From the IMG/VR virus record IMGVR_UViG_3300031578_000400, positions 1 to 21,229 of that record: a stretch of 21,229 bases of DNA; one strand, 5' to 3'. Below the pieces are notes generated by a model. It worked only from the letters and a program-made list of their open reading frames with translations. It was not told where the DNA came from and did no database searches. Shown here piece by piece: positions 1 to 21,229 of this stretch (the first letter of the stretch is position 1; each line of letters begins with the position of its first letter). A program made the position numbers and the translations under genes. This DNA comes from a virus.

Positions 1-904
1 AGCCATCATCAGTGAAGGTCGCAACGTTTACGCCTGAGCCTGCGTATATAGCCACCCGTGGGTTCGTTCCATTAGCATATCCATAAAATAAAGGTCTTTC
101 AGTGCCGTTAGAGTCCTCAAGCCTAATCTGTATGCCACCATTATGCTGTCTACTAATGATCTGTGTTATGGCGTCATTCTGCTTTATCTCTGTCACTCTT
201 GAGGGTTCGGCTAAATCATTTATTTTAATACCATCTGAAATGGTTTCCATTACCTTACTTCCAGCATAATAAAGTTCAGCTGATCCGTCTGGATCTCCTC
301 TGAAAACATCTTTAACTTCCGCTGCTGCGTCTGTGGCCTGTAAAACTATATTATTGTCATTTGTAATGGAGCGGACTATAGCATCATCTCCACTGCCGGT
401 TAATCTTAAATTATCTCCTGAACCATTATAAACAAGAACCCCATCACTAACAGTTTGGAATTTAATACTACCAGCATAATACATAGACGCTGCACCGTTT
501 GCCTGACCAACAAATAAAAGTCTAGTACCAGAAGATTCTCCAGTTAATCTTACTTCAACGCCGCTTTTGTTTTCTATATAAAATCTATTTGATCCAGAAT
601 CAAAATGCATATCCGCAGTATATGTGCCATCTGTTACGTTTATACCATCAGAACTTGCGGTAGCTCTAACATCGGTGGTGTTATAATATAATGATTCTGG
701 GTTACCGCCGCCTACACCAGAGAGATTAGACCCGTCTCCATATAAGGTAGTGGCGTATATATCTCCAGTACCTGATATAGTTCCATCCTGGAAGTTTAAT
801 GTTCCACTTGTGACAAGATTGACATGAACCCAAGCATCATGCTCGGCTTCTTCCATGACATCTTCGTCTCTTAATTGTGCTGCTCTTAATAAGCTTCTTG
901 CCAT
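1..904 (-). CDS. Tail fibre-like protein, C-terminus off the window
   Basis: The frame is open from the ATG at 904 to base 1, giving 301 complete codons, so the gene continues beyond the window. The start follows a GGGAG site seven bases upstream that lies inside the end of the preceding gene; the two genes are one base apart. The N-terminus begins MARSLLR, the same heptapeptide that opens the interrupted fibre gene at 10742. Further on there is an ISGTGDIYA segment, close to ISGTGDIFA in the 689-aa fibre. After that come repeated modules of the type LYYAGS..-..T.SDG, at least three times, separated by Gly/Ser/Asp-rich stretches. Repeats like these are common in phage fibre shafts of beta structure. 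I infer a structural, host-contacting role. The receptor-binding tip is probably in the missing C-terminal part. Confidence 0.75.
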   Translation of the reverse strand, partial: MARSLLRAAQLRDEDVMEEAEHDAWVHVNLVTSGTLNFQDGTISGTGDIYATTLYGDGSNLSGVGGGNPESLYYNTTDVRATASSDGINVTDGTYTADMHFDSGSNRFYIENKSGVEVRLTGESSGTRLLFVGQANGAASMYYAGSIKFQTVSDGVLVYNGSGDNLRLTGSGDDAIVRSITNDNNIVLQATDAAAEVKDVFRGDPDGSAELYYAGSKVMETISDGIKINDLAEPSRVTEIKQNDAITQIISRQHNGGIQIRLEDSNGTERPLFYGYANGTNPRVAIYAGSGVNVATFTDDG

Positions 905-6867: not shown

Positions 6868-9408
6868 TTATTGTCTAATATAATACGTAATATTGGAATA
6901 TTGATACACATCTTCTGTAAAAGTAATACCTGAAATTGAAGTCTCAGCATAATCTCTGTCTCCATTAACTCCTCCTATTCCAGTACTAGCCGATAATAGC
7001 TGGCCATCTAACCACACATCCATATTCTTTCCTTCCTGTCCAGAGACAGTAGAATATGGTATATAAGTTTGACTCTCAGGCAATGGATGTTCCACTCCAG
7101 CGGTAATATCAGAAGCAAGTTCTTCTATATATTTATTACCAATACCAGCTTCTAAAAGGGCTGCTATAGCACCCATGGCTATATCAAGGTCGTCCAATGA
7201 ATTAGCTATTGGATCACCATCAATTATATAACCACCTGTGCCGTCGCCTTCACCTAGAAGTAAGACTGAACCATCATCACCTATCTCAAAGCTATTACCA
7301 TTCTCGTCGAAATTTAACACACCATTACCATAAACCCTGTCACCTATTTCAGTGTTCAGAGCATTAATAGCAGCTGTCTGACTAGTTCCAGAAACTACTA
7401 TATAATAAGATCCGGTGTCAGTCCAAGATGGTGCGCTTTCACTGTTGCTGGCTCCTGTATAATCCCAAAGGTTAACTATGTCATCTATAATCTCAGCGTC
7501 GCCCTCAAAACCATTTATAAAGTCAGTACGATGCCATTCATACTCTTCCATTTCTGAAAGAACTTTTCTGAATGGGTACACCAGCATAATATCTGCGGGG
7601 TCGCTAGCAGTCCAAGTGTAGGCTCCGCCGGACGTATAGAATTTTACATAAACATCAGCGCCCTCACCAGTACCACCATGATCCTCACCATCATAAAATT
7701 TAGCATAAATCACATTACCACTGACGTCCTTAAACTCAGAGCCAGTAGAGTAATCTATCAAGTCTATAGCACATACATCATCAGCCGCGCCCTCATCAGC
7801 AAAATCTCCAGCATTAGCAACACTCTGAAAGATAGGTAGACCTCGTCTATCAGACCAATCAGCATATCTAGAATCAGTAGGTGTAAACAAAAAACCCTCG
7901 TCAGTATTCGATATTGCTATACCGCTGCCTGATTCGGTAGTGCTCACTGCTACAAGTATAGTGTGAGCATCTAATGTGTTTCCACTAAAATTAGATAAGG
8001 TAGGTTCTTTATTCCATTCGCTGCCAGAGGTAGTGTTGGTGGGGTCGAAGTAAGTCGCCGGTTCTGTAAACCAATCGTCAGTACCTTTAATCTGCTTCAA
8101 CAATGTTCTAAAAACATTTAAATCGTGCTGTAATGTATTAGTGTCATCAGATTCATCAGCCAGATAATTAGGATCTGTACCAGTAACTGTGGGTTCTGCA
8201 ACAGCAACGGTATTAACACCTACTACGCCATCATTATAATAACCACTAGCTAATGTAGCATGAATTGACTGATAAATTTCATCTTGATAAAATCTACTTC
8301 TGCCCAGATCTGAAGGTAAACCAAGACCAACAACATCCCAATCTGGATCAGTGTTTAAATCATCTACGCTTGCGTTATAGGTGGCAGTTCCGGAAGATGT
8401 GATGTTAAGTGTAGCCGTAGCTATACCATTGGCATCAGTATAAACTGTACCGGATACTAATGTACCTATATTATCCCCGCTACCAGAGAACGTTACTGGG
8501 GCGTCCTCTACCCCGCCGCCAACAGAATCGAAAACTTTGGCTTTAATAACGACAGAAGTTCCTATATAACCAGATCCTTCAGATCCAGTATAAAACTCTA
8601 TCCTGTCTAATTCAGCGAAACCATATGTAGAAAACTCAAGAATGTCAAAAGAAAGAGTTCCTGCATTATACACTACATTAGCAATTTTATCGGTATACCC
8701 ACTAGCTACATTACCATTGTAATCGGTAACAGTATGCCAGCTGGAACCATCATTGTATGCAATGTATGGAGCCGCTGAAAAACCACTCTTAGATACTGGT
8801 AGTTTATTCCCCGGTTTGATAGCCAAAATTTTGGCTACTTCAGAATTAGGTGCTGCGTAGATTAAATTATTATACAACCTTATCCCACTCATATCTAAAT
8901 CATGGAATAAAAGTTGATCTATATTATTTTTACTAAATCTAACGGTGATATTAGAACTATCACCACTTTCTAAATCAGTATATGTCGCATTTTCATGCCC
9001 TCTGTCAGACCAAGTAGCCTGACCGTCACCATAAATTACATTAGGGTATATTCTGGGCTCATCAAAATCAAATGCTATACCGCTTGACACAACTGTCTCA
9101 TAATTGGAGCCACCGTCATGGAACTGAGCATACACAAACTGCATTGCGTTTGTGTTTACCAGTGTTCCGGTTATCGTGGTTGTCCTAGCTGACATGTCTA
9201 CCCACGAAGCGCTGCCTGAGCTCGTTACCCCATCTATGTCCCAGACTTTATATCTAGAACCTGGATAAGAGTAGGCATCGGGGCCGCGTAGGGAGACTTC
9301 GACTTGGAGACCATGAGTTAGCCACACGTGGTCAGCATTACTAACCTCGATAGCAGGGGTCGACGGCAGCGAATTGCTATATGTTATATTCCATGAATTG
9401 CTTGCCAT
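6868..9408 (-). CDS. Large adhesin-like fibre protein with bacterial Ig-like domain
   Basis: The 846-aa protein is mosaic. Residues 1-265 are beta-rich and unlike anything else in the window. Residues about 268-348 fit a bacterial Ig-like (Big_1, invasin type) domain: 'IGTSVVIKAKVFDSVGGGV', 'DAPVTFSG', then 'TDANGIATATLNITSSGTAT'. Residues about 400-846 are a paralogue of the upstream gene at 9435-10742, sharing 'VAEPTV.G', 'YFDPTNTTSGS', 'SGNTLDAHTI', 'DMEEYEWHRTDFI..[FW]EGD', 'SLDDLDIA', 'NMDV.[LV]DGQLL' and a C-terminal 'NITY.IRQ'. An alternating low-complexity 'IGDDGSVLLLGEGDGTGG' stretch is inserted in this half compared with the paralogue. The start has GGAG about ten bases upstream. 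A host-adhesion role is inferred from the Ig-like domain and the fibre setting. Confidence 0.7.
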   Translation of the reverse strand: MASNSWNITYSNSLPSTPAIEVSNADHVWLTHGLQVEVSLRGPDAYSYPGSRYKVWDIDGVTSSGSASWVDMSARTTTITGTLVNTNAMQFVYAQFHDGGSNYETVVSSGIAFDFDEPRIYPNVIYGDGQATWSDRGHENATYTDLESGDSSNITVRFSKNNIDQLLFHDLDMSGIRLYNNLIYAAPNSEVAKILAIKPGNKLPVSKSGFSAAPYIAYNDGSSWHTVTDYNGNVASGYTDKIANVVYNAGTLSFDILEFSTYGFAELDRIEFYTGSEGSGYIGTSVVIKAKVFDSVGGGVEDAPVTFSGSGDNIGTLVSGTVYTDANGIATATLNITSSGTATYNASVDDLNTDPDWDVVGLGLPSDLGRSRFYQDEIYQSIHATLASGYYNDGVVGVNTVAVAEPTVTGTDPNYLADESDDTNTLQHDLNVFRTLLKQIKGTDDWFTEPATYFDPTNTTSGSEWNKEPTLSNFSGNTLDAHTILVAVSTTESGSGIAISNTDEGFLFTPTDSRYADWSDRRGLPIFQSVANAGDFADEGAADDVCAIDLIDYSTGSEFKDVSGNVIYAKFYDGEDHGGTGEGADVYVKFYTSGGAYTWTASDPADIMLVYPFRKVLSEMEEYEWHRTDFINGFEGDAEIIDDIVNLWDYTGASNSESAPSWTDTGSYYIVVSGTSQTAAINALNTEIGDRVYGNGVLNFDENGNSFEIGDDGSVLLLGEGDGTGGYIIDGDPIANSLDDLDIAMGAIAALLEAGIGNKYIEELASDITAGVEHPLPESQTYIPYSTVSGQEGKNMDVWLDGQLLSASTGIGGVNGDRDYAETSISGITFTEDVYQYSNITYYIRQ

Positions 9409-9434: not shown

Positions 9435-10595
9435 TTACTGTCTAATCATATAAGTAATATTTCTCCCTACTTGGACATCAAACCTAAATGTGATGCCAGA
9501 AGCAGTGGTTTCTCCATAGTCTCTATCAGCTCCGGAGCCGTAAGATCCGGTATCGGCGGCCAATAATTGACCGTCAACATACACATCCATATTCATACCC
9601 TCTCTGCTAGCAGTACTGACTGGCGTATAATTAGGGGCACCTACTGGAAGTGAATGCTCTATATTTTTAACAACTAAAGTCTCTACTGATTCTACCCATT
9701 TCTCAGCCACTCCAGAATCTATACTGTCAGACAGTACTTGGAGAGCAATATCCAATTCATCCAAGGATTCAGTGATGGGATCACCAGAATCAATATAATT
9801 CTCTGCTGTGTAAGTCCTGTCACCAACCTCTGTATTCAAGAGATTAATAGCAGTTGTAAGATCTGCTGGATCAGACTGCAATATAAAATTAGCAGCAGTA
9901 TCATCCCATGTTGGGTCGGTTGCATCGTTAGAAGCGCCGGTGTATGACCATAGGTTGGAAATATCTTCAATGATCTCGATATCGCCTTCCCACGAACTGA
10001 TAAAATCAGTTCTCAGCCATTCATATTCTTCCATGTCAGAGAGTACTTTGCGCTGTGGATACACAACACCAATTTTAGAAACTCCTGAAACCATGGTAAT
10101 CAAAGCATCAGCGGCGTAGAATATTACGGAAACATCAGTACCTGTACCAGTACCACCTGGATAGTCAGCCGCATCATGCAGCTTACCATAAATAATATCT
10201 CCGTTACCATCTACAATCTCACCATCCGTGTCCATATCAACGATATCAACACGACAAACATTGTCACTACCACCTATATCAAAATATGTATCAGGATTAG
10301 CCGAACTTGCATAGATCGGAAGACCTGTTCTATTATCAGGTGTAGCATATCTAGTTGCAATGGTTAACAATACACCAGAGCTACTAGTAGTAACAGCGTG
10401 ACCAACCGCAGCAGCATCATTAGAAACAGCTATGATAATAGTGTGGGCATCTAATGTGTTTCCACTCATATTACTTAGCGTTGTTTCTTTGTTACTTACG
10501 CTGCCGGATGTGGTGTTGGTGGGATCAAAATAGTTGTCATTCTGGTCATACCAATATTTCGTAGGACCTGTAGAATCAAATTTGAGTTGTTTCAA
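9435..10595 (-). CDS. Fibre paralogue; the part that can be translated after an in-frame stop
   Basis: The frame is open from codon 10695-10697 to 9435, giving 386 aa from the TTG at 10595. It is clearly homologous to residues 400-846 of the 846-aa protein, and this homology extends upstream of the TTG ('SVAEPTVSG', 'LEEDANVIRSLLKQL') to within about 14 codons of a TAA at 10698-10700. The same frame before the TAA starts with an ATG at 10742 that has a strong ribosome site. The TTG is only weakly supported, by AGG six bases before it. The protein as drawn here is therefore probably shorter than the ancestral product. It would form a beta-rich fibre or adhesin. Whether it is made by readthrough, by internal initiation, or not at all cannot be told from the sequence. 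Confidence 0.6.
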   Translation of the reverse strand: MKQLKFDSTGPTKYWYDQNDNYFDPTNTTSGSVSNKETTLSNMSGNTLDAHTIIIAVSNDAAAVGHAVTTSSSGVLLTIATRYATPDNRTGLPIYASSANPDTYFDIGGSDNVCRVDIVDMDTDGEIVDGNGDIIYGKLHDAADYPGGTGTGTDVSVIFYAADALITMVSGVSKIGVVYPQRKVLSDMEEYEWLRTDFISSWEGDIEIIEDISNLWSYTGASNDATDPTWDDTAANFILQSDPADLTTAINLLNTEVGDRTYTAENYIDSGDPITESLDELDIALQVLSDSIDSGVAEKWVESVETLVVKNIEHSLPVGAPNYTPVSTASREGMNMDVYVDGQLLAADTGSYGSGADRDYGETTASGITFRFDVQVGRNITYMIRQ

Positions 10596-10742
10596 AAGTG
10601 ACCTAATGACGTTGGCGTCTTCTTCTAACGAACCAGAAACCGTAGGCTCAGCTACTGAAGAGTCGTTGAAATTAACGACGGCATCAGTAAAAGTAGCTTA
10701 CTGTCTAATTTGCTCTAATTGCCTTAATAGACTTCTAGCCAT
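10596..10742 (-). other. 5' end of the fibre gene, separated by an in-frame TAA
   Basis: An ATG at 10742 preceded by GGAGGAG opens MARSLLRQLEQIRQ and then meets TAA at 10698-10700. The reading frame continues without shift into 'ATFTDAVVNFNDSSVAEP', which matches the paralogue's '...VGVNTVAVAEPTV'. The first seven residues MARSLLR are identical to those of the partial fibre at 904. A single codon therefore separates a well-initiated N-terminus from its body. Confidence 0.7.
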
Positions 10743-10769
10743 TTTTGTTTCTCCTCCTAAGTATTTATT

Positions 10770-10808: not shown

Positions 10809-11327
10809 TTATCTCCTGTTACTAATAGTCAGTTCCTGAATTCTTTTCATCAAAATGCGACGTAGACTGTCTTTACCGGTACGTTGATTAGCTGTGTTCT
10901 CAGCGTATTTAAGCAGCTGTATATCCTGAATTTTAGGTATAATTTCACGTGCTTGTCTTACTGATAATCCAACTATATCATCAACACTCAACTCGGTAGG
11001 CACAATCGGTGCCACATTTTCCCCCCTTGACTTATCCGTCTTTACGACGTTAGATCCCTGTACCGTTACCTTTTGTTCTTCCTGTAATTCTTTGCCTGGC
11101 GAAACCTCCGCATAGGGCTTATCATTTTCTGTAAAAATTTGCCACCTGTTTCTATCACGAAGCTTAACTTCTTCGAGCCATTTAATGAATTCTTCCCCCT
11201 TTTTTAGATTATGGCGTTTACCATACTGCTCATAAATCTCATCAAGGGGAATCTTTGCGCCCGGACCCACTGTTCTCTTCATCGTGTGGGACCATAGGTG
11301 TGTCATGTTCTTCACGTAACCATTCAT
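10809..11327 (-). CDS. Putative head-associated protein, unknown function
   Basis: The 172-aa protein has a conserved-looking N-terminal half, 'TVGPGAKIPLDEIYEQYGKR' followed by 'GEEFIKWLEEVKLRDRNRWQIF'. A low-complexity linker follows, then a basic C-terminal helical segment ('SVRQAREIIPKIQD', 'TGKDSLRRILMKRIQEL'). The ATG at 11327 is chosen because GGAG stands six bases before it. Internal ATGs at 11306 and 11282 lack such a site, although the conserved part begins near the latter. The gene starts inside the preceding membrane-protein gene, with 86 bases of overlap in another frame. Coming right after the capsid and membrane genes, it may be a head-completion or internal virion protein, but I do not recognise the family with certainty. 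Confidence 0.6.
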   Translation of the reverse strand: MNGYVKNMTHLWSHTMKRTVGPGAKIPLDEIYEQYGKRHNLKKGEEFIKWLEEVKLRDRNRWQIFTENDKPYAEVSPGKELQEEQKVTVQGSNVVKTDKSRGENVAPIVPTELSVDDIVGLSVRQAREIIPKIQDIQLLKYAENTANQRTGKDSLRRILMKRIQELTISNRR

Positions 11328-12875: not shown

Positions 12876-13490
12876 TTAAACTAAAAGTTTAATTCTAATC
12901 GGATACAGTGTGGTATTTAGAATAGTTGCCTGAGCCTTAGCAATACTAACGCCCTTAACAACAACAGCAACCTGATCACTGACTGCAGCATCAACGGCTC
13001 CGCCTAAGGTAGAAGCTTCGTCTTTCGCCGAACCTGTAACCTTGGCTTCGTCCTTAGAAGCATATAATTTCTGTCCAGGAACAATATTAGCCTCAACAAC
13101 ACCGGCAGAAGACTGCTCTGTGGTATAGTGAACTGTGTCCCAAATACCCATATGGGCTACGCCCAATGGAGCTTCTTTGGTACCATCAATAGCACCATTA
13201 GCATCATAACTAGGTTGCGCAATAACATCACTTGATCCCAGGTCGCCCGGCATCATAAAGCCAGTCGGATGTACCTGGTGATATCCCATCTTAACTTTCT
13301 GCATAGCGAAACCAAACGGATCAGCGGGGACGTCCATCTTTACAACGATGGGCTCTTGGTTAGTGGAGCTGCCGTCCAAATAAAGAACGGACCCAGCATA
13401 ACAAACTACACCACCAACTCCACCAGCCGAACTAGAAGCTTCGTAACTACAGAATTGATTTTCAACTACAGGATGTCTTGGAATAAACAT
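12876..13490 (-). CDS. Putative head decoration or capsid-stabilising protein
   Basis: The 204-aa protein lies between the scaffold-like and capsid genes, the usual place of head decoration proteins. It opens 'MFIPRHPVVENQFCSYEASS', then has Gly-, Ala- and Val-rich strands ('GGVGGVVCYAGSVLYL') and 'DPFGFAMQKVKMGYHQVHPTG'. It ends 'NTTLYPIRIKLLV'. The beta-rich, Ala/Gly/Val-heavy makeup and the absence of membrane or signal segments fit a structural capsid accessory. The start has GGAGG nine bases upstream. The 78 bases after its stop contain a TATAAT-like box but no credible -35 element. An alternative is a minor head protein or a second capsid subunit. Confidence 0.6.
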   Translation of the reverse strand: MFIPRHPVVENQFCSYEASSSAGGVGGVVCYAGSVLYLDGSSTNQEPIVVKMDVPADPFGFAMQKVKMGYHQVHPTGFMMPGDLGSSDVIAQPSYDANGAIDGTKEAPLGVAHMGIWDTVHYTTEQSSAGVVEANIVPGQKLYASKDEAKVTGSAKDEASTLGGAVDAAVSDQVAVVVKGVSIAKAQATILNTTLYPIRIKLLV

Positions 13491-13508: not shown

Positions 13509-14255
13509 TTATTCTTTATTCATGCGCTTAGCCATAGCCTCACCCAGTTTTCTATACTTAGCAAGCACGTTATCGGAGGGCATAACCTCCATGTTTAGAG
13601 CAGCAGCCATTGCCTTGCCTGGATCTATATTGGCAGGCGGTGTTTCTTCAGCGGCTTCTTCTTCTTCACCCTCGGCGGATTCTTCCTCTTCGCCAGCGGC
13701 TTCCTCTTCGCCATCGGTTTCTTCTGCAGCGGCTTCTTCCTCTTGAGTCTCCTCTTCAGAAGCTGCCTCTTCAACAGGTAGTACCTTGGCAAGTTCAGCT
13801 TCGACAGCGCTTCTCAGAGAGACGAGCTCTTCCTTATAACTTCCGAACTCCTCGTCTTCCATTCCTCTGACCTTAGACGTCTGGGCGTCTTTATCAGAGA
13901 GTGCTACGCCGGCGGTCTTAAGTTCTGCCATGCGAAGCTCTGCTGCCTTGTCTTTCCTCATTTCTTCCATTGTATTCTCAGATGCGGCAAGCTTTTCAGC
14001 TGTTTCAGTGGCTTCCTTCTTAGCTGCCTCTAGCTCTGAAGTTAGCTCTTCGATCTTACTCTCTAGATCTGTAACCTGCTTTGCTACTTCCTCTCCGTCA
14101 GCGTTCTTGTTTTCAAGAGCCTCGGTTAGTTGAGTAATAGTATCAGCGGATGCCTGGAGAGCCTTTTCGGTTTCAGCTCTTTGCTCTGCCTCTTCTTTCT
14201 GAGAAAATATCGCGACCACTGCGGCCTCGACATCTTTCTTCAGTTCTTCATTCAT
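13509..14255 (-). CDS. Scaffold-like capsid assembly protein
   Basis: The 248-aa protein has a long coiled coil (about 5-115, Glu/Lys heptads), then 'AELRMAELKTAGVALSDKD' and 'RGMEDEEFGSYKEELVSL' (about 105-147). That pattern ('R.AEL...G', then a cluster ending 'F..Y...L') is typical of phage scaffold or prohead core proteins. A very acidic low-complexity stretch follows at 162-205 (13641-13772), then a basic C-terminal helix with 'AKYRKLGEAMAKRMNKE' that could bind the capsid. This order, coiled coil, acidic linker and basic capsid-binding tail, is what is expected of a scaffold. GGAGG lies nine bases before the ATG. The 129-base gap upstream of this gene is AT-rich, with an AATAAATA stretch but no clear promoter. 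It was probably made in excess and then removed or digested by the protease encoded upstream. Confidence 0.75.
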   Translation of the reverse strand: MNEELKKDVEAAVVAIFSQKEEAEQRAETEKALQASADTITQLTEALENKNADGEEVAKQVTDLESKIEELTSELEAAKKEATETAEKLAASENTMEEMRKDKAAELRMAELKTAGVALSDKDAQTSKVRGMEDEEFGSYKEELVSLRSAVEAELAKVLPVEEAASEEETQEEEAAAEETDGEEEAAGEEEESAEGEEEEAAEETPPANIDPGKAMAAALNMEVMPSDNVLAKYRKLGEAMAKRMNKE

Positions 14256-18774: not shown

Positions 18775-21229
18775 TTACTTAACCCTTCGCTTACCTTTCA
18801 AGACCGCCCGACCTAAACCGCGATCGTTTCCTATAGATGGTCCAGGCCCAAGTGCTTTTTGTTTATTAAGAACACTCCATGGAGAATTTGGTTTACGCTC
18901 CCTTATATAGCCAGCCTTCTGAAATAAAATAGGTTCCGGCTCACCTTCAAGCTCCTTTGCCACCATTCTGCATCCGTGTGCTGCTAATATAACAGCTGAA
19001 TACAGGTCCTTGTTCTGTCCTTTCTTAGGTGTATCGAAATGTAATGCGCCTGACGCTGTCTGTGTAACAACAATATTTAACATCTGTTTCTTAAGTGTTA
19101 ATACATTACTGTACGCATCAGCTAAGATATCTGCTGTAGTGACAGGCGGTTCTGGAAACATCAACTTTTTATCTTCTAACATAGATAGTGTTGTAAAGTT
19201 AGCGTCCGCTATCCACGTAGGATTAAAATTAACCATCTCCAGTATGTGTCTACCTTTCATGTGACGCTTGTCATCGTCTGTACGGTCAATGAGAGGCTCG
19301 TAGTCGTTATATCCATCCTCTAACAGGTCCATAATAGCCTTACCACCACCGCCTTTGTCTATGAACACTCGGACGACGTGGTACGACTCACAGATAGCCT
19401 GTACCATCATTGTTAGATCTTGTGTGGTTCTACGCTTCAACTCCAGTACGTTTACTATCTTATTAGGGTTACCATACTTTATTATTACTACACCGCAACT
19501 GGCTTCTCCTCCCTGACTGGGGTCAACACCGACTACATAATCATGACCGGGATCTCCACGGACTTCTAGTGTATAACCACTTCCTTCTGTACACGCCTCT
19601 AACACAGAAGCTTTAAAGAACCCTTCTGAATCAGATATCATAGCAGCTTCGTATTCCATTCTGAATTCCGCGTCAGACATGATACGCTTAGCTTCTGAAA
19701 TATTATTCTTATCCAAAAAACCATCCGGTAGATCCCAATAAGGTATTTGCCATACCTTGTACTGAGACGCATCACCGTCCCTTTTCATCATGGCCCAATG
19801 GTCGCGCATACGACGCCACATATGATTAAACTTATAGAAACCAGATGACGTCATTATCATCTTGTTGACAGTCTCTTCCTCAAAATCACTATCAGAGGCT
19901 AAGCCCAATTCAATCAAACGTTTCTGACGTTCTAACCTACGAACGTTTTCCATAGGCTCTAGTGTTGTAGCGCCCATAGGACGAACAACCATGTCTAGTG
20001 TAGAATCTGGTACTTGAGCTAACTCGTCCACTACTATTAAATAGAAACGAGACCCACGAATTTTACTATTATGACTAAAGAATCCATTAGCACAGTATTC
20101 ATTACCATCTGGTACATGGATATCATATGTTAAATCTTCACCCTGACCTATAGAAACAATTTCATCATAATATATATCTGGGTTTGCTAATTTTTTTATT
20201 TTATCTACAGCAGAGTAGTTTAAATGATCATATGTTTTAATAAAACAATCAGCCATATATTGTGTAACTGAATTTTTAGATTCTATCATGGACGACCTAA
20301 CATAACGTGATTCTTTACACCCAAACCCTCTTTCTACTTTATTTTCAAAACTAACACGGATCATATCATCTCTGATTCCAGGAATATCATCATTCTTAAT
20401 CCACCTTGTTTTATTCTTAACTGCGGCCGCCAAAATATCTTGTTTACGTTTTAATTTAAATCCTATTTCCTCATAGAATATCTTAACATCAGAACCAGTA
20501 ATTAATAATTCATAGGAAGTATTCCAATTAACATCCCTATCTCTTTCGGTCTTATATGCCACTATACCATAATGTAATAATATATAATGTAATTGATTTA
20601 TTAATTCTTCCGACGTGTTTGTAAATCCTATAGTTATACCTATTCCACCTTTTATTGTAGATACTTGTATATGACCATCTGAATCATATAAGCCGCTGAT
20701 AGTTTCCGACATAATATTACGAGGTGCTGATAAGATTTTATCTGGTAATTTTTTATCAATAGTATAACACACATCCATACCCCAAAAATCTAACCATCTC
20801 TTCACATTATCTTTGGAATCATGATTGTAATGTACTCTATCAGAACACATATAAAATTCATAACCAAGTCCTCTTTCTATATGACTTATCAATTCAGGGT
20901 CTTCAGTGGTGTATCTTAATCTATATTTATTTGTCCACGAACCATCTCCTACCATCAAACCTAAAGCATATGCCTGTTCCTCCGTAACGGCCGCATTACC
21001 ATTATGCCATCTATAACTACGGTCAATTAGAATTCTGTCGCCTACTATCATTTCGTCAAATCTGCACCAAATAATTTCCCCATTCCTAACAATTTTAAAC
21101 ATATGATTTGGAGTGCCTTCGTTTTTAAAACCCTTAGCTGTTTTTATTTTTATAGTTTCTTTTACACCATTACACAACGAACAATCAGATTCTCTGAATT
21201 CACCATTTGACCACACTATTTCTTTTCTA
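18775..21229 (-). CDS. terL: Terminase large subunit interrupted by an intein, N-terminus off the window
   Basis: The frame is open to the window edge; the GTG at 21216 is an internal Val codon and not a start. Residue numbers here count from that codon. Residues 1-383 are intein. From Ser384 the terminase continues: 'FYLIVVDE' (391-398) is Walker B with its catalytic Glu, 'MTSSG' (456-460) a probable coupling motif, and 'GVDPSQGG' (D565), 'FIDKGG' (D620) and 'KDLYSA' (D737) the acidic residues of the RNase H-like nuclease that cuts DNA in packaging. Walker A and the N-terminal ATPase half lie outside. The basic C-terminus ends 'GKRRVK' with TAATAA. The mature enzyme would dock on the portal and pump DNA. 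Splicing must occur for the ATPase to work. Confidence 0.92.
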   Translation of the reverse strand, partial: RKEIVWSNGEFRESDCSLCNGVKETIKIKTAKGFKNEGTPNHMFKIVRNGEIIWCRFDEMIVGDRILIDRSYRWHNGNAAVTEEQAYALGLMVGDGSWTNKYRLRYTTEDPELISHIERGLGYEFYMCSDRVHYNHDSKDNVKRWLDFWGMDVCYTIDKKLPDKILSAPRNIMSETISGLYDSDGHIQVSTIKGGIGITIGFTNTSEELINQLHYILLHYGIVAYKTERDRDVNWNTSYELLITGSDVKIFYEEIGFKLKRKQDILAAAVKNKTRWIKNDDIPGIRDDMIRVSFENKVERGFGCKESRYVRSSMIESKNSVTQYMADCFIKTYDHLNYSAVDKIKKLANPDIYYDEIVSIGQGEDLTYDIHVPDGNEYCANGFFSHNSKIRGSRFYLIVVDELAQVPDSTLDMVVRPMGATTLEPMENVRRLERQKRLIELGLASDSDFEEETVNKMIMTSSGFYKFNHMWRRMRDHWAMMKRDGDASQYKVWQIPYWDLPDGFLDKNNISEAKRIMSDAEFRMEYEAAMISDSEGFFKASVLEACTEGSGYTLEVRGDPGHDYVVGVDPSQGGEASCGVVIIKYGNPNKIVNVLELKRRTTQDLTMMVQAICESYHVVRVFIDKGGGGKAIMDLLEDGYNDYEPLIDRTDDDKRHMKGRHILEMVNFNPTWIADANFTTLSMLEDKKLMFPEPPVTTADILADAYSNVLTLKKQMLNIVVTQTASGALHFDTPKKGQNKDLYSAVILAAHGCRMVAKELEGEPEPILFQKAGYIRERKPNSPWSVLNKQKALGPGPSIGNDRGLGRAVLKGKRRVK
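20068..21229 (-). mobile_element. Intein with LAGLIDADG homing endonuclease in the terminase
   Basis: Numbered from the codon at 21216, residues 34-40 'GTPNHMF' fit splicing block B, with a T..H type core. 'LGLMVGDG' (85-92) and 'ISGLYDSDG' (173-181) are two LAGLIDADG motifs with acidic residues D91 and D180. 'YDIHVPDGNEYCANGFFSHN' (364-383) holds blocks F and G with the terminal His-Asn. The next residue, Ser384, would be the nucleophile of the C-extein. Block A and the first intein residue are off the window. All visible catalytic motifs are intact, so both splicing and endonuclease activity look possible. The insertion point is just before the Walker B strand of the terminase ATPase. Confidence 0.9.

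Follow-up and report, generated by a model that had tools for sequence, protein, structure and literature searches.

Described cases of interrupted virion genes

The A1 protein of phage Q-beta is a readthrough virion protein that begins with the abundant coat protein and continues past a leaky UGA stop. At the locus described here an in-frame stop likewise splits a virion protein frame into two parts; unlike in A1, however, the first part comprises 14 residues, and the stop is TAA and is shared by no relative. The closest known case, with which the locus may be compared by analogy, is the broken stf gene of laboratory lambda. In phage lambda PaPa, stf, the side tail fibre gene, is broken by a frameshift (PMC10721106, citing Hendrix and Duda 1992), and its loss is readily selected in a biofilm-like setting, with stf mutations in 19 of 21 sequenced isolates, including 15 frameshifts (PMC2762979). 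As with stf, a putative fibre gene appears to have been lost by a simple mutation that left the rest of the gene recognisable, the lambda phage working otherwise. The differences are that a nonsense codon rather than a frameshift is involved, that the phage is natural, uncultured, and known from its sequence, and that its protein, a presumed fibre, is not homologous to Stf by the searches made.

The window (the whole stretch of DNA analysed) is a metagenome virus record of 21,229 bases from IMG/VR, with the structural module of a phage encoded on its minus strand. Family-model matches identified the terminase, the portal, and the major head protein, and fibre-like genes follow; the gene at 13509-14255 is a candidate scaffold gene by position and composition only. 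The terminase frame (18775-21216, minus strand) contains an intein with a LAGLIDADG domain and is cut by the window end. Extra ORFs in or beside the major head protein gene were noticed in contigs L006 (1878-2393 and 3561-5057) and L007 (992-2029), and by eye they look like homing endonucleases.

The interrupted frame and its relatives

On the minus strand, the beginning of the gene reads TTAGGAGGAGAAACAAAA-ATG (10742) GCT AGA AGT CTA TTA AGG CAA TTA GAG CAA ATT AGA CAG TAA (10700-10698), the TAA being codon 15, 14 codons from the ATG. The ribosome-binding region of this start (AGGAGGAG, 10746-10759, minus strand) is near-identical in the closest relative, contig L010, in which the gene order is identical. 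The 14-codon remnant ORF (10698-10742 with the stop, minus strand) encodes MARSLLRQLEQIRQ, and its residues 1-13 match the conserved family start. The in-frame stretch from the stop to a TTG (codons 16-49; 10596-10697, minus strand) is homologous in all relatives and is now untranslated unless the stop is passed. The remaining frame, which is open from the TTG at 10595 behind a weak AGGT site and is 386 residues long (9435-10595, minus strand), represents the body of the fibre-like protein. Beyond the TAA, neither a frameshift nor a second stop interrupts the frame before its terminator at 9437-9435. The sequence therefore confirms the original prediction of a start at 10742 with a strong GGAGG site, a TAA after 14 codons, and an unshifted frame beyond it.

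An intact paralogue of 846 residues lies directly downstream (6868-9408, minus strand); it carries a Big_1 domain, and its C-terminal module is homologous to the broken gene. Over 477 columns the readthrough frame is 45% identical to it, and the alignment takes in some of the sequence before the TTG, in agreement with the proposed continuation into sequence homologous to the neighbour; the homology falls in the C-terminal half of the paralogue. One 95-base stretch of the broken gene (10438-10532) is 80% identical to positions 7958-8052 of the paralogue (minus strand), closer than the rest, and looks as if one gene had copied the other.

Relatives were gathered from viral metagenome contigs by protein searches and by a DNA pattern for the conserved start, a set that may lack near-identical phages of the window's own population. 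The protein is encoded by 31 distinct relatives and is complete wherever the contig extends far enough, which rules out that the frame is open by chance. The readthrough frame matches them from residue 1 to the last residue. Both the conserved N-terminal segment and the full-length homology to the C-terminal RNITY end that characterise the MARSLLRQLEQIR family are present in the window copy; the reading frame that begins at the N-terminal ATG is interrupted in this copy and open in each of the 31 relatives. The N-terminal segment occurs in 31 of 31 relatives, each of which aligns a Ser, Ala, or Thr codon with the stop. The start at 10742 is hence the normal start of the family, and the body upstream of the TTG was formerly coding, as had been supposed. 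Since the DNA pattern leaves codon 15 free, copies bearing the stop were also detectable, and neither the protein nor the DNA-pattern searches found any among the 31 relatives; a stop absent from relatives with an intact gene is what a nonsense pseudogene would show. One of the two motifs in one search lies near the C-terminus, so that copies lacking the N-terminus were detectable as well, and none appeared among the viral metagenome contigs. Relatives that start naturally at 10595, named in the original prediction as counter-evidence, were sought and are absent among the 31. Searches of isolate phages and bacterial genomes returned no relatives.

Natural versions of 167 residues are found in contigs L076, L077, and L078 (3001-3501); they join about 60 residues of the N-terminus to about 90 of the C-terminus, without the middle. 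Because even these versions keep the conserved N-terminus, their sequences suggest that it may be needed for attachment or assembly. The start M[AG]RS[LVF][LI]R of the broken gene also occurs in the window at 2-904 (minus strand) and at L005:8449, L006:8455, L021:7718, and L051:4968; this short segment on otherwise different structural-module proteins may serve as a common peptide for docking or assembly.

No significant match of the window protein to a named tail fibre family was obtained in PHROGs, Pfam, or PDB. In the wider family, tail needle, minor head, and tape measure models were each matched by one member. The structural model predicted for the L010 protein is of low confidence (mean pLDDT 58.5, pTM 0.36); it has helices at the N-terminus, a beta domain, a long helix, and a further beta domain at the C-terminus. 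Tailspike and tail fibre proteins are among the viral predictions that it matches best, a resemblance that is only suggestive because the model is weak. It is from such low-confidence fold matches and the gene context only that the protein is taken as a putative fibre.

Selective constraint on the interrupted gene

Private changes on the window branch and on that of its sister L010 were averaged over 20 outgroups. Were the stop an error or the protein still fully required, the broken gene would be expected to change at the pace of its L010 sister, and it does not. The broken gene has accumulated 44.9 private amino-acid changes in the window versus 22.0 in L010, with 33.0 versus 41.9 synonymous changes, giving amino-acid to synonymous ratios of 1.36 and 0.53, respectively. 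The adjacent paralogue is even in amino-acid changes (40.5 in the window versus 42.7 in L010), as are the neighbour at 10809 (6.7 versus 8.0) and most other neighbouring genes. With six outgroups taken singly, Fisher P values ranged from 0.001 to 0.046, these tests being non-independent because they share the window and L010 rows. Changes from common to rare residues in the broken gene were distributed 40:10 between the window and L010 (P = 2e-5), whereas nine neighbouring genes pooled gave 65:57 (Fisher P = 0.001 for the difference from the broken gene). An intact-looking gene adjoining the major head protein (12876-13490, minus strand) has an excess of the same kind, though less pronounced (14:4, P = 0.03). 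The reduction in constraint relative to the sister and the neighbours, as expected of a nonsense pseudogene, is thus moderate given this weaker excess elsewhere, and the signal, read from sequence comparison, appears strong yet not unique to the broken gene; acceleration by itself is no proof of loss, because the intact gene at 12876 shows it too. Overwriting by the paralogue was rejected as a source of the excess, only 1 of 33 window-derived rare residues being the paralogue residue.

Across codons 14-49, 50-110, 111-200, 201-350, and 351-435, the window-derived changes number 4, 6, 7, 9, and 7, compared with 0, 0, 5, 3, and 0 derived in L010; three further private changes of the window sit beside the stop (codons 14-19). 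Under full release, 15-30 excess amino-acid changes predict 0.6-1.5 stops, and one is observed. The excess is therefore the number expected from full release when about one stop has arisen, which is a consistency check and gives no date. The lack of any other stop or frameshift and the conservation of most residues indicate that the release was recent or partial.

These data are probably best explained by a lineage-specific nonsense mutation in the first of two adjacent paralogous fibre-like genes, which has since been released from selection and is in early decay. Silencing of one of two paralogues had been listed in the original prediction among several meanings, and the intact relatives together with the gene-specific excess of amino-acid changes make it the best reading. 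The mutation would cut this putative virion gene after 14 codons, so that ribosomes starting at the strong site at 10742 would release a 14-residue peptide and the full-length protein would presumably not be produced in a useful amount. Since then, the whole length of the gene would have been free of selection, at an early stage of decay, and the particle would presumably still be equipped from the intact paralogue and the other fibre genes. The presence of the paralogue is not enough to render the first gene dispensable, because both genes are intact in six other phages that have the same paralogue (L007, L010, L012, L016, L021, and L022). Counting against the nonsense-mutation reading, faster change could instead reflect adaptive divergence of a surface protein.

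Alternative explanations and significance

Among the alternatives, the one that survives best, although unlikely, is that the stop is a consensus error or an allele carried by part of a mixed population, the whole protein being made by the phage in general. The sequence comes from a 21-kb metagenome virus fragment, nothing else interrupts the frame up to its end, and an elevated rate of amino-acid change can have other causes, as in the 12876 gene. A pure sequencing error is nevertheless argued against by the gene-specific excess of amino-acid changes: constraint is reduced over the whole length here and not in the neighbours taken together, private changes cluster beside the stop, and none of the remaining window genes is visibly damaged.

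Somewhat less probable still is a restart of translation at the TTG at 10595 that yields a shortened 386-residue protein that is still useful. The frame from the TTG is open, a weak AGGT site precedes this possible start, and no further stop lies downstream. However, none of the 31 relatives begins there, L010 has another Leu codon in place of the TTG, and in the natural 167-residue forms it is the middle that is missing and the first 60 residues that are kept. The excess changes also lie on both sides of the TTG, and this spread along the full gene fits release of the entire protein better than a restarted one.

Programmed or tolerated readthrough, or a reversible switch, by which little full-length protein would be made and the host range would vary, is very unlikely. 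The start site, the first 13 codons, and the frame beyond the stop are intact, but the original suggestions of readthrough and of host-range switching found no support: no relative has the stop, TAA is the usual terminator, and no tRNA was found in the window. Nor did the relatives show what a readthrough gene would be expected to have, a shared stop with constraint before and after it. Searches for an Rfam element, and for a terminator or an unusual hairpin at the stop, were likewise negative; the sequence around the stop has an unremarkable folding energy (z = -0.93), and 241 bases hold eleven inverted-repeat pairs, among them the 6-nt pair CAGTAA/TTACTG that flanks the stop, so that short repeats do not exceed the regional background. 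TAA ends 17 of the 20 genes in the window, for which reason a change of code, already thought unlikely, was rejected; the accompanying statement that all other genes stop at TAA holds as the usual case, with two TGA and one TAG as exceptions. A suppressor tRNA was rejected for the window on the tRNA result. That the phage uses the early stop on purpose, with the 14-residue peptide as a separate product and the full fibre made rarely, thereby tuning which particles carry it, is highly improbable.

The broken fibre-like gene is thus most likely a sound but ordinary case, loss by ordinary mutation being already known for the tail fibre genes of other phages, and it leaves ideas on translation or host-range switching unchanged. 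Read as a nonsense mutation followed by release from selection, it would show, on a small scale, a virion gene of a natural phage at the beginning of its decay, one that can be compared with intact relatives and with an intact neighbouring paralogue, and it indicates that reduced constraint is detectable on single phage genes from metagenomes.
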